Positions 21,532 through 27,170 of a stretch of 64,000 bases of DNA are shown piece by piece (within the stretch, counting starts at the first letter, position 1; the number at the start of each line of letters is the position of its first letter). Origin of the DNA: an uncultured Ruminococcus sp. GTDB taxonomy: Bacteria; Bacillota; Clostridia; Oscillospirales; Acutalibacteraceae. The stretch is taken from assembly GCA_902786345.1 (NCBI GenBank), contig CADACB010000005.1:62502-126501 (forward strand), in the 5' to 3' direction. The translations under genes and the position numbers were made by a program. The notes beneath the pieces are model-generated. The model did no database searches and was not told where the DNA came from. It saw only the letters and a list, made by a program, of their open reading frames with translations.

Positions 21532-23130
21532 TTATTTTTCAGAAGCTGCCTTAATAAACTCTCTGAAAAGAGGGTGTGCGTGATTAGGACGGCTCTTGAA
21601 TTCAGGATGATACTGAACGCCAATATAAAATTTATTTTCAGGTATCTCAACAGCTTCAACAAGCAATCCGTTGGGAGATGTACCTGTAACAGACATTCCG
21701 CTTTCTTCAAACAGTGTACGGAATTCGTTGTTAAACTCATAACGGTGACGATGACGCTCTGTGATCTCACTTAAACCGTAAGCTCTGTCCATAATGGTAT
21801 CCTTCCTGATTTTGCATGGATACCCACCAAGACGCATTGTACCACCCATATCAACTATGCCCTTCTGATCCGGCATAAGATCAATCACCTTATGTTCACT
21901 GTCAGGATCAAATTCTCCTGAATTTGCATCCTTAAATCCAAGAACATTTCTCGCATATTCAATAACGGCAGTCTGCATACCAAGACATATGCCAAGGTAA
22001 GGTATATCGTGTTCCCTTGCATATTTTGCAGCAATAATCTTACCCTCAACGCCTCTGTTGCCGAATCCTCCCGGCACAAGTATACCGTCAACGTGACCTA
22101 AAAGCTCATCGGCAGTATATTCGGTAATAAGCTCGGTATCAACCCATTCAATTTCAACAAAAGCTTTATTTTCATAACCCGCATGATGAAGTGCCTCAGC
22201 AACCGAAAGATAAGCATCGTGAAGCTGAACATATTTTCCACAGAGTGCAATTTTTACTTCCTTCTCACGTGAGTTTATTCTGTCAAGCATCTCAAGCCAC
22301 TCGTTCATATCCGGCTTTGGTGCGTCAATTTTAAGCTCACGGCAGACTATATCACTGAAGTTTGCTTTCTCAAGCATCATAGGCGCCTGATAAAGCACCG
22401 GTATTGTCATATTTTCAATAACACAGTCCGGCTTTACATTACAGAACATTGCAATCTTCTTGAATATACTCGGATCAAGCGGTTCATCGCAGCGAAGAAC
22501 CATTATATCAGGATTTATACCAAGTGAACGCAGTTCCTTTGCAGAATGTTGGGCAGGCTTGGACTTATGTTCTTCACTGCCCTTTATGTAAGGTACAAGA
22601 CAAACGTGTATAAACAGGCTGTTCTCTCTGCCAACCTCAACAGAAACCTGTCTTATTGCTTCCAGAAACGGCTGACTTTCAATATCTCCAACAGTTCCGC
22701 CAATCTCGGTTATAACTATATCCGCATCAGAATCCTTGCCAACCGCATATATAAACGATTTTATCTCGTTGGTAATGTGAGGTATTACCTGAACAGTTTC
22801 ACCAAGATAATCGCCTCTGCGTTCCTTTTCAAGTACATTAGAATATACTTTTCCTGTTGTCAGGTTAGAAAATTTATTCAAATTTTCGTCTATAAATCTT
22901 TCATAATGACCAAGGTCGAGGTCTGTTTCAGCACCGTCCTCGGTTACATAAACCTCACCGTGCTGATACGGACTCATAGTACCGGGATCAACATTAATAT
23001 AGGGATCGAGCTTCTGAGCAGCAACCTTAAGTCCTCTTGCTTTAAGAAGTCTTCCGAGCGATGCGGCTGTGATTCCTTTTCCAAGTCCTGACACAACGCC
23101 GCCCGTTACGAAAATGTACTTTGTTGTCAT
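21532..23130 (-). CDS. pyrG: CTP synthase
   Basis: Makes CTP from UTP, ATP and glutamine. The 532-residue protein has the synthetase domain first ([24 protein letters not shown] at the N-terminus, with the P-loop-like GLGKG) and [21 protein letters not shown]. The class I glutamine amidotransferase domain follows (residues ~295-532) with GGFGNRG, the nucleophile in [10 protein letters not shown] (Cys ~383), and the His/Glu of YHPE near 510. All catalytic residues are present and the length is normal. Its ATG overlaps the stop of the carB-dapF gene by four bases, so it is translationally coupled to it. Confidence 0.96.
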
Positions 23131-26100
23131 AACTCAATTTCTCCTTCAAATACGGTTTCGGCATAACCTGTCAGATATACCGATTCGTCCGTGTATTCAA
23201 TAATCAAATTGCCGCCCTTAAGCTTGACTGTTATAGGCTCGTTCTTCTTGCAAAGACCGTTTTCAACAGCAGCTACTGCAACGGCACAAGCACCTGTACC
23301 GCATGCCCACGTTTCACCGCTGCCTCGCTCCCATACACGCATCTCTATTGTATGGTCATCAATCACCTTAACAAATTCTGCATTTACTCTCTCCGGGAAC
23401 AGCTCACTGTTTTCAAACATAGGACCTATTTTTTCAAGATCAAGCTTTTCAACATTATTGCAGAACACAACACTATGAGGATTTCCCATTGAAACACAGG
23501 TGATGTTATATTCAGTTTCGCCAATAGTCACAGGCTCATTTATTACCCTGGGCTTATTTATAGCAACAGGTATCTGTGAAGAAGCAAGAACTGCTTTGCC
23601 CATATCAACCTTAAGTACATCCACAACTCCATCGTGACGGTAAGCCTTAAGAGTTTTTATTCCGCTGAGCGTCTCAACAGTTATAGTATCACCACTTACC
23701 ATATTGTGGTCAAAAAGATATTTGCCAACACAACGTATACCGTTTCCGCACATCTTGCCCTCACTGCCGTCAAGATTATACATCTTCATCTTTGCATCCG
23801 CAAAGTCTGACGGACAAATCAGTATAACACCATCGCCGCCGATTCCATAGCGTCTGTCAGAGAAACGCACACTCAGCCCCTCAGGATTATTGATTTTCTG
23901 ATCAAAGCAGTTAAAGTAGATATAGTCGTTGCCGCATCCCTGCATTTTTGTAAATCTGAGCTTCATTTTTTCGGTTCTCATATTATTTATGTCAACAAGC
24001 TCTGTGCTGTATTCCGAATAACGGCTCTTGAGCGAATCTGCCAGAGCATTTGCAGTATCAATAGATGTAAGACAAGGAATGTTTCTTTCAACCGTCTTAC
24101 GGCGTATCTTAACGCTGTCACGAGTGGGGATTCTGCCCTTTGATGATGTTGAGATAACATAGTTGATCTTACCGCTTTCAATGAGTGTAAGAGTATTGTC
24201 CTTATCATTTTCGTGTATCTTGTCAACCTCTATTACATCAAGACCATAGTTTCTGAGAGTCTGTGCTGTTCCCTTTGTTGCATAAAGCGTAAAGCCCAGT
24301 TCATCATATTTCTTGGCAACATCGCCTATCTCGTTTTTATCAGGATTACGTACAGTTATAAATACTCCGCCCTGTTTTGTCATCTTGTAGCCGGCTGCAA
24401 TAAGACCTTTATATAAAGCCTCTTCAAGCGTATTGGCAATACCAAGTACCTCACCCGTAGACTTCATCTCAGGACCCAGCTGGTTATCAACGTTTATGAG
24501 CTTCTCAAACGAGAATACCGGTACTTTGACTGCAACATACGGAGATCTCTTGTAGAGTCCTGTTCCGTAGCCCATATCTGCAAGCTTCTCTCCGAGCATT
24601 GCTCTTGTAGCAAGATCTACCATAGGAACACCCGTCACCTTACTGATATAGGGAATAGTTCTTGAAGAACGCGGATTCACTTCTATTACATACAGTTTTT
24701 CTTCATAGATAAGATACTGTATATTTACAAGTCCCTTTGTTTTCAAAGAAACCGCAAGATTCTTTGAGGTTCTGATAATATTTTCAGTCATCTCATCGCT
24801 GATGTTCCAAGCAGGATATACAGCAATCGAGTCACCCGAATGTATACCGGCTCTTTCAACGTGCTGCATAATGCCGGGGATAAGAATTTCCTCGCCGTCA
24901 CATATTGCATCAACCTCAAGTTCTGTACCCGAAAGATACTTGTCAATAAGTATCGGGTTTTCAATATTCTGTGCAAGAATAATTGCCATATATTCCTTAA
25001 TATCAGCTTCATTAAATGCAATGATCATATTCTGTCCGCCCAGAACATATGAAGGACGCATAAGCACAGGATAACCGATCTTCTCAGCTACCTCAAGAGC
25101 CTCATTTGTGGTCATAACTGTAAAACCCTGAGGACGCTTTACGTGATGAAGCTCAAGCAGTTCATCAAAACGCTCTCTGTCCTCTGCCATATCAATACTG
25201 TCAGCTGATGTACCAAGGATATTTACGCCGTTTTCACTGAGGTATTTTGTCAGCTTAATGGCTGTCTGACCGCCGAATGCCACAACAACTCCATAGGGCT
25301 TTTCGGTGTGGATAATACCCATAACATCTTCATTAGTAAGCGGTTCAAAATAAAGTCTGTCGGCTGTATCAAAGTCAGTAGAAACAGTTTCAGGGTTATT
25401 ATTTACAATAACAACGTCATAGCCGGCTTTTTTAAGTGCCCATACACAGTGAACAGAAGCATAGTCAAATTCAATACCCTGACCGATTCTTATAGGACCG
25501 GATCCAAATACGATTATAGTCTTACGATCGGAATTCTTTTCTTTTATAAAGGCTTCCGCCTCATTATCAGAATCATATGTAGAATAGAAATAAGGTGTTT
25601 CTGCAGAGAACTCTGCCGCACAGGTATCAACCATCTTATATACGGGTATCATCGGATTCTCCACCTTGCAGCCCGTAAGTGATTCAATTGTTCTGTCAAG
25701 AAATCCCAAAAGCTTTGCCTTATTATAAAGTTCATCTGTAAGCTTAGAATTTTTTAGTTCTCTTTCGCATTCAACAAGATTGAGCAGCTTTTCAAGAAAC
25801 CATTCATCAATCATTGTTATATTATGGATTTCTTCAACAGTAACCCCTCTTTTAAGAGCCTCATATACACAGAAAGAACGCTCATCATCACAAACATAAA
25901 GCTTGTCGCGGATTTCCTCGTCACTCATCTGTTCAAATTTCGGAGAAGACATTGTGTCGTGATGTATCTCAGCTCCTCTGACAGCCTTCATAATAGCCTG
26001 TTCAAAGGTCGGTGCTATTGCCATAACCTCGCCCGTTGCCTTCATCTGTGTGCCAAGTGTTCTCTTGGCATATACGAATTTATCGAAAGGCCATTTCGGG

Positions 26101-27170
26101 AATTTTACAACAACATAGTCCAGTGCAGGCTCAAAGCAAGCATATGTTGTACCCGTTACGGCATTTTTAATCTCATTAAGTGTATAGCCGATTGCAAGCT
26201 TTGCAGCAACCTTAGCTATAGGATAACCAGTTGCCTTTGAAGCAAGGGCAGATGAACGTGAAACACGGGGATTAACCTCAATAACGGCATAGTTAAAGCT
26301 CTCCGGTTCAAGAGCAAACTGACAGTTACATCCACCCTCAACACCAAGTGCAGAAATAATATTAAGTGCTGCACTTCTGAGCATCTGATATTCCTTATCA
26401 GCAAGTGTTACAGTCGGAGCAATAACTATACTGTCACCTGTATGTACGCCAACGGGGTCGAAATTTTCCATTGAGCAGACAGTGATAACATTGCCCATTT
26501 TATCACGCATAACCTCAAACTCAATTTCCTTCCAGCCTGCAATACACTTCTCAACAAGCACCTGAGTTATCGGAGAAAGCTCCAGTCCGTTTGCGGTTAT
26601 CTCACGAAGCTCTACCTCATTATTTACTATACCACCGCCTGTACCTCCAAGAGTAAATGCAGGACGTATTATTACAGGATAACCTATCTCATCGGCAAAC
26701 TCAACAGCTGACTGTACGTCATTAACTACAGTTGAAGGAATAACCGGCTGTCCTATAGACTCCATTGTATCCTTGAACATCTGTCTGTCTTCAGCCTTAT
26801 CTATTGTTTCGGGATTTGCACCAAGAAGCTTTACGTGATGTTTTTTAAGAAATCCTTCTTTAGCAAGCTGCATTGAAAGTGTAAGACCCGTCTGACCGCC
26901 AAGAGTTGAAAGCAGTGAATCAGGCTGCTCCTTGATAATAATTCTCTTGACTGTTTCAAGTGTAAGCGGCTCAATATAAACCTTATCAGCCATAGCCTTA
27001 TCCGTCATTATTGTTGCAGGGTTAGAGTTAACGAGGATAACCTCAAGACCTTCTTCCTTAAGAGCACGGCAAGCCTGTGTACCCGCATAGTCAAATTCGG
27101 CTGCCTGACCTATAACGATCGGACCTGAGCCGATAACAAGAACTCTTTTAATACTGCTATCTTTAGGCAT
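23127..27170 (-). CDS. carB-dapF: Carbamoyl-phosphate synthase large subunit fused to diaminopimelate epimerase
   Basis: A single frame of 1347 residues. Residues 1-~1060 are a complete CarB: two ATP-grasp halves (the first opening [20 protein letters not shown], the second with [20 protein letters not shown] near 555), and the C-terminal MGS-like allosteric domain (~935-1060). After a linker of about ten residues, residues 1069-1347 (from an internal ATG at 23966) are a complete 279-residue DapF. Both epimerase Cys motifs are present ([11 protein letters not shown] and [11 protein letters not shown]). CarB makes carbamoyl phosphate for pyrimidines and arginine; DapF makes meso-diaminopimelate for lysine and wall peptide. 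No stop lies at the junction and the internal ATG has no clear ribosome site, so both activities would be made as one chain. It overlaps carA by eight bases and pyrG by four. Confidence 0.93.

Follow-up and report, generated by a model that had tools for sequence, protein, structure and literature searches.

Carbamoyl-phosphate synthase (CPS) large-subunit domains sit within longer chains in animal CAD and in mitochondrial CPS1, where the fusion partners are a glutaminase part or the next pyrimidine steps. Here we describe a gene, carB::dapF, in which the large subunit CarB is likewise part of a longer chain but is joined to the diaminopimelate (DAP) epimerase DapF, which comes from another pathway. 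The gene lies in a stretch of 64,000 nucleotides (the window) from an uncultured Ruminococcus sp. (GenBank assembly GCA_902786345.1, contig CADACB010000005.1, positions 62,502 to 126,501). Set against CarB as otherwise described (NF003671, TIGR01369; E. coli structure 1bxr), residues 1-1051 of the product align end to end, with carA just upstream, but the window chain continues past the MGS domain and the native tail into a complete DapF. Set against DapF (TIGR00652), this second part is full length with both catalytic Cys and the DAP-contact residues, but it is not a free protein, and many of its fused relatives have lost the first of the two Cys.

DapF-family proteins with a second function have been described in two other settings. 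In E. coli, as reported in PMC4227774, the catalytically inactive C73A/C217A DapF still binds and stimulates RppH, a non-catalytic partner role of the DapF fold, although there DapF is a separate protein that acts on an mRNA hydrolase. The NCBIfam family bifunc_DapF (NF038284, epimerase/glutamate racemase) also has a second function, but as a second substrate of one domain, and the window protein reaches 113.9 bits against its cut-off of 350. No joint CarB-DapF model is among the best 25 of the 45 NCBIfam matches for the window protein. The comparisons reported here identify the fusion as a conserved carbamoyl-phosphate synthase variant, for which literature searches on CarB or carbamoyl-phosphate synthase together with DapF, epimerase or fusion gave no description among the titles and abstracts listed.

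CarB and DapF in one frame

The carB::dapF frame has a single stop, at its 3' end, and its product of 1347 residues has a computed mass of 148.9 kDa (Table 1). In an NCBIfam profile search, NF003671 (CarB) matches residues 1-1051 with 1505.7 bits (curated cut-off 599) and TIGR00652 (DapF) matches residues 1072-1345 with 284.3 bits (curated cut-off 114.65); Pfam domain assignment agrees for both halves. An earlier reading of the window from its letters (the sequence-only reading) had proposed a full CarB and a full DapF, with both active-site Cys motifs, in one 1347-residue frame that overlaps carA by eight bases and pyrG by four. All of this holds: both profiles are far above their cut-offs, the two Cys are present alongside the DAP-contact residues, and the coordinates of both overlaps are as given. 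The same reading was right that a linker exists but put it at about ten residues, when 17-20 lie between the last CarB profile residue (1051) and DapF (1069-1072). These are mostly an ELVDINNM-type tail, and because C-termini like it are found in unfused CarBs of the class (..VDINKI, ..VDINTL, ..ELVDIKEIR or ..VDINTIR directly before the stop), the linker is mostly the native tail of CarB; other unfused CarBs differ in their tails. Across the fused loci examined, the DapF match starts 54-81 bases past the end of the CarB match, mostly 54-60.

Near-invariant CarB columns are highly conserved in the fused CarB rows except in one locus (L184), and in the window organism the CarB half would make carbamoyl phosphate together with CarA. 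L184 (genome G529) deviates at 114 of the 306 near-invariant columns; its DapF half has lost Cys73, and its genome carries a second carAB set. In L169 (G737) the fused CarB has about 90 additional residues near residue 472-477.

We infer that the gene is translated as a single chain. The sequence-only reading had thought one chain likelier than two, and the relatives bear it out, since the internal ATG is poorly conserved: at the position of 23966, the first DapF codon, ATG is found in just 27 of 104 distinct loci and any of ATG, GTG or TTG in 40, while 105 of 167 fused loci have none of the three from two codons before to four codons after the first DapF codon. A Met codon five residues before the first DapF position is kept in 103 of the 104 loci, with an upstream Shine-Dalgarno (SD)-like match of at best 4-of-6. 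The alternative is that two proteins come from one message, with translation starting anew at the junction to give free DapF as well. The window ATG at 23966 does have a 4-of-6 SD-like match upstream, and 5-of-6 SD-like sites precede in-frame junction starts in 21 of 167 loci, compared with 12 expected from synonymous shuffles (the count reached 21 in 2 of 200 shuffles); in Ruminococcus bromii-type loci, where AGGGAGG stands ahead of an in-frame ATG, the site is prominent by eye. With start codons absent near the beginning of DapF in so many fused loci, we regard this alternative as very improbable. Because the start codon is not conserved, we reject the view that initiation at 23966 is the rule, although it may be used in a minority of loci.

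Spread and origin of the fusion

Relatives were where the sequence-only reading had suggested looking for the same architecture, and we find it across the genus, the family, the order and beyond. Counting rows whose open frame crosses the CarB-DapF junction, the fusion is present in 56 of 64 genomes of the genus (in 46 at full or almost full length, in 10 truncated at a contig end); of the remaining eight, G015 has its frame broken within DapF and seven lack an assembled junction. It is found in at least 139 of 398 genomes of the family; in at least 101 of 245 of the order, in 20 of its 26 sampled families; in at least 32 of 196 of the class, in 17 families outside the order; and in at least 6 of 149 of the phylum (including G000, the window genome), in 4 families outside the class. 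Beyond the order, 21 sampled families thus hold the fusion, and genomes without it are also numerous in the same searches. Among 80 of 152 loci, the named holders include R. bromii YE282 and 5AMG. In G015 (L201), whose assembly is fragmented, the break comes near the beginning of the fused DapF and may be either a sequence error or real decay.

The sequence-only reading had cautioned that the fusion could be a recent loss of the carB stop codon. That caution is the only point in favour of a recent stop loss, or of an assembly error in this genome, and the distribution contradicts it: a fusion common to most sampled families of the order and to some beyond it does not look recent, and the same fusion recurs in many assemblies of many families, including the one-contig genome G679. 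We consider a recent or artefactual origin almost certainly wrong, and read the distribution as that of an ancient, long-standing fusion shared by many bacteria of the gut and rumen.

A single origin in the distant past is probable, by the joining of a neighbouring dapF onto the native tail of CarB. In G787 the order is antar-carA-carB-dapF-pyrG with carB and dapF unfused, and in certain distant relatives several kb separate carAB from a downstream dapF; the intervening genes in L215 resemble pyrK, pyrD, pyrF and pyrE plus one opposite-strand gene (names given by eye from translations). On a CarB tree (84 rows, quick method, with L184 a long branch of unsafe placement) the fused state takes 4 changes, which, with a root placed among the unfused outgroups, may be read as a single gain plus three splits. 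A tree of 86 DapF rows, whose bootstrap had not settled, likewise takes 4 changes, 3 of them forced by well-supported branches, and has the standalone copy of G975 nested among fused rows. Two loci with broken or odd frames (L201, L202) were dropped from the trees.

On the quick CarB tree the unfused CarBs of L204 (G693), L213 (G960) and L203, L180 and L205 (family f44) are placed among fused rows and are likely splits of the fusion; G809, also of f44, is fused. Three further loci (L186, L189, L190) have dapF directly before pyrG with no carB match within about 7.8 kb around, as would be expected had carAB been lost. L181 (G723), L182 (G529) and L183 (G546) contain a divergent carA-carB-dapF set in which a 267-residue dapF is adjacent to carB but separate from it; a purine-rich stretch precedes this dapF, and G529 and G546 hold the fusion elsewhere too.

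Loss of Cys73 and other routes to meso-DAP

To compare the fused DapF halves we used 132 fused genes, one per genome, chosen by hand from the listed matches so as to cover 37 family codes. Of these, 54 have Cys73 and 78 have lost it, a proportion that, because the genes were picked by hand for spread, is no estimate of frequency; the losses fall in 24 family codes. The replacements are varied (A 51, G 17, S 7, and T, Y and F one each). Cys217 is kept in 126 of the 132 and in 74 of the 78 Cys73-less copies. Another 15 fused loci, left out of an initial 147 because their genomes had no DapF family search, all have both Cys intact. Both Cys are also present in the unfused DapFs compared, 22 of 22 standalone and 4 of 4 adjacent (the unfused L180-L183 are outside the fused rows).

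The remainder of the pocket is largely retained in the Cys73-less copies, which keep N64 (77 of 78), N75 (76), N162 (76), N195 (76), E213 (77), R214 (75) and G223 (78), with all seven together in 72; N13 is kept in only 60. By our own mapping, these correspond to the positions that hold DAP-like inhibitors in Anabaena DapF (PMC12039745). On the best quick tree the state of Cys73 changes 17 times, and well-supported branches yield 6 independent pairs; the median pairwise identity among Cys73-less domains is 56%. For pairs above 72% identity, the ratio of nonsynonymous to synonymous substitution rates (dN/dS) has a median of 0.138 for inactive DapFs (13 of 22 pairs measurable) and 0.0905 for intact DapFs (22 of 53 pairs measurable), both rough values because synonymous sites are near saturation.

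It is possible that the Cys73-less copies remain enzymes with altered chemistry, acting for example on a related amino acid or as a one-base lyase. Dehydratases are known among related folds in which one Cys is replaced, and the retention of Cys217 would agree with such a change, but the variety of replacements suggests no single new catalytic residue, and we think this explanation improbable. A DapF half without its catalytic Cys but with its binding pocket suggests, instead, a sensing or structural part of CarB.

Judging from these comparisons, the loss of Cys73 is repeated and correlated with other meso-DAP routes, a pattern that the sequence-only reading overlooked. A standalone DapF is present in 55 of the 78 Cys73-less genomes vs 22 of the 54 Cys73-bearing ones (Fisher p 0.0011); within the genus it accompanies 24 of 64 genomes (51-61% identity; three partial matches only). 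We sought DAP dehydrogenase in G000 and 59 of the 132, and DapL in 27 genomes. Of the 23 Cys73-less genomes without a standalone DapF, 20 have DAP dehydrogenase over its cut-off, so that one alternative route or the other is found for 75 of 78; G200 has a dehydrogenase fragment at a contig edge. Calling a copy inactive if either Cys73 or Cys217 is lost, DAP dehydrogenase is found in 21 of 25 inactive vs 10 of 19 intact genomes among those searched that lack a standalone DapF (p 0.044), and DapL passes its cut-off in 8 of the 9 intact genomes that have neither alternative (G000 is one of them) vs 1 of 18 inactive genomes (p 3.5e-5), with both p values uncorrected for the tree. In G685 dapL and the fusion gene share one base, and in G853 dapL begins 118 bases past the fusion gene; G294, G163, G093 and G326 have it about 1.7-1.9 kb downstream, on the strand of the fusion gene. 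The catalytic Cys thus tends, on this evidence, to be kept where the fused protein must epimerise LL-DAP and to be lost where that is needless.

The window genome (2.35 Mb, 75 contigs, listed as 100% complete) is of the first kind. It has a single DapF place, within the fusion frame, and a single CarB (the second match listed for the query, at 25% identity, is an ATP-grasp stretch). DapL is above its cut-off on the same contig as the fusion, about 76 kb away, and the profile search of 60 genomes gave no DAP dehydrogenase match in G000; the best LysA match, sought in 12 genomes, is 279.4 bits, under the 297.9 cut-off. Because both Cys are present in its sole DapF, DapL is present and no DAP dehydrogenase was found, the window chain is probably bifunctional, with CarB and DAP epimerase activity.

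A possible second role and its operon

A Cys73-less, pocket-bearing domain that persists over many families calls for a second role. The explanation we judge best, at somewhat better than even odds, is a bifunctional chain whose DapF half also serves CarB without catalysis, perhaps through DAP-dependent control. DapL would make LL-DAP, which the DapF half would convert to meso-DAP, apparently by the only route in the window organism, while CarA and the CarB half would make carbamoyl phosphate. The second role would require a folded, DAP-binding domain but not Cys73, and where another source of meso-DAP exists Cys73 has been lost repeatedly, which would leave the second role alone. Most likely, DAP bound at the DapF half would feed back on carbamoyl-phosphate synthesis via the neighbouring MGS domain, the usual regulatory site of CarB. 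UTP and meso-DAP meet in the wall precursor UDP-MurNAc-tripeptide, and such feedback would match these two inputs. DapF closes upon its ligand, as described in the Anabaena report (PMC12039745).

It is also possible that a chance operon fusion left CarB dependent on the DapF fold to fold, assemble or stay stable, with no DAP signal; Cys73-less copies would then persist because of this dependence. The fusion joins neighbours of one operon, whose unfused adjacency exists in G787, and the predicted model gives no domain contact or ligand effect. But the residues kept in the Cys73-less copies go beyond those of the fold to the DAP contacts, some of which may matter for the fold too, and we consider this explanation rather unlikely.

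Several observations weigh against DAP-dependent control by a bifunctional chain. An AlphaFold model of residues 400-1347 has no domain contact, although it is a weak model (42 close rows; mean predicted local distance difference test score (pLDDT) 64.9, below 50 at the junction residues; predicted template modelling score 0.43). Once the tree is corrected for, Cys73 loss and possession of a standalone DapF are not significantly associated (6 supported pairs, median p 0.69); the tests for DapL and for the dehydrogenase ignore kinship. G110 (99% complete) has a Cys73-less fusion and DapL, with neither standalone DapF nor DAP dehydrogenase found, and the same two are missing from the matches in the Cys73-less G625 (84% complete). 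Since 10 of the 19 intact genomes searched that lack a standalone DapF also have the dehydrogenase, an alternative route does not force loss of the Cys. Some small genomes retain dapF without an adjacent carB and at least three splits are suggested on the CarB tree, so the fusion is dispensable. The excess of SD-like sites at the junction is a further point of this kind.

Should DAP-dependent control nonetheless operate, we would tentatively extend it to the whole clade, as something that may well prove wrong: the fused DapF would be an allosteric extension of CPS, a DAP sensor that sets pyrimidine and arginine carbamoyl supply by wall-precursor status, still catalytic in DapL users, the window organism among them, and a pure sensor in many relatives.

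The fusion gene stands between carA and pyrG (Table 1). The ANTAR-domain protein whose frame overlaps carA might act on the operon transcript; relatives of it lie near carA or dapF in L162, L177, L180, L194 and L197. A candidate RNA element near the operon was rejected, being a single match with E 0.39, below its gathering score. L196 (G187) and L197 (G197) have the order carA, carB::dapF fusion, separate dapF, pyrG, and both DapFs have both Cys.

Table 1. Features of the carB::dapF operon, in window positions
Feature	Positions	Strand	Basis or remark
carB::dapF fusion gene	23127..27170	-	1347 codons + stop; ATG-to-stop frame, NCBIfam and Pfam matches
CarB part, residues 1-1051 (two ATP-grasp halves, oligomerisation domain, MGS domain)	24018..27170	-	NF003671, Pfam
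MGS-like domain of CarB, residues 949-1035	24066..24326	-	PF02142
Junction, residues 1052-1068	23967..24017	-	resembles native tail of unfused CarBs
DapF part, residues 1069-1347 + stop	23127..23966	-	TIGR00652; ATG at 23966 not conserved
First catalytic Cys codon (Cys73 of DapF), intact	23748..23750	-	residue comparison
Second catalytic Cys codon (Cys217 of Haemophilus DapF), intact	23301..23303	-	residue comparison
carA, small subunit	27163..28410	-	8-base overlap with fusion gene; listed frame begins upstream of CarA domain
ANTAR-domain protein overlapping carA	28400..28981	-	domain match
pyrG, CTP synthase	21532..23130	-	4-base overlap with fusion gene
Terminator-like hairpin 3' of pyrG	21474..21494	-	consensus match only

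The Cys73-less relatives make the fusion more interesting than the sequence-only reading had supposed. For annotation they are a warning, because genes that pass the DapF model in these genomes may be without a catalytic Cys. The repeated loss of that Cys, together with the retained pocket, offers natural comparisons for how an enzyme domain may come to serve a different enzyme as its ligand-binding part. In gut and rumen bacteria, including the cultured R. bromii, the entry to pyrimidine and arginine synthesis and the supply of cell-wall diaminopimelate, usually treated apart, are tied in one chain.

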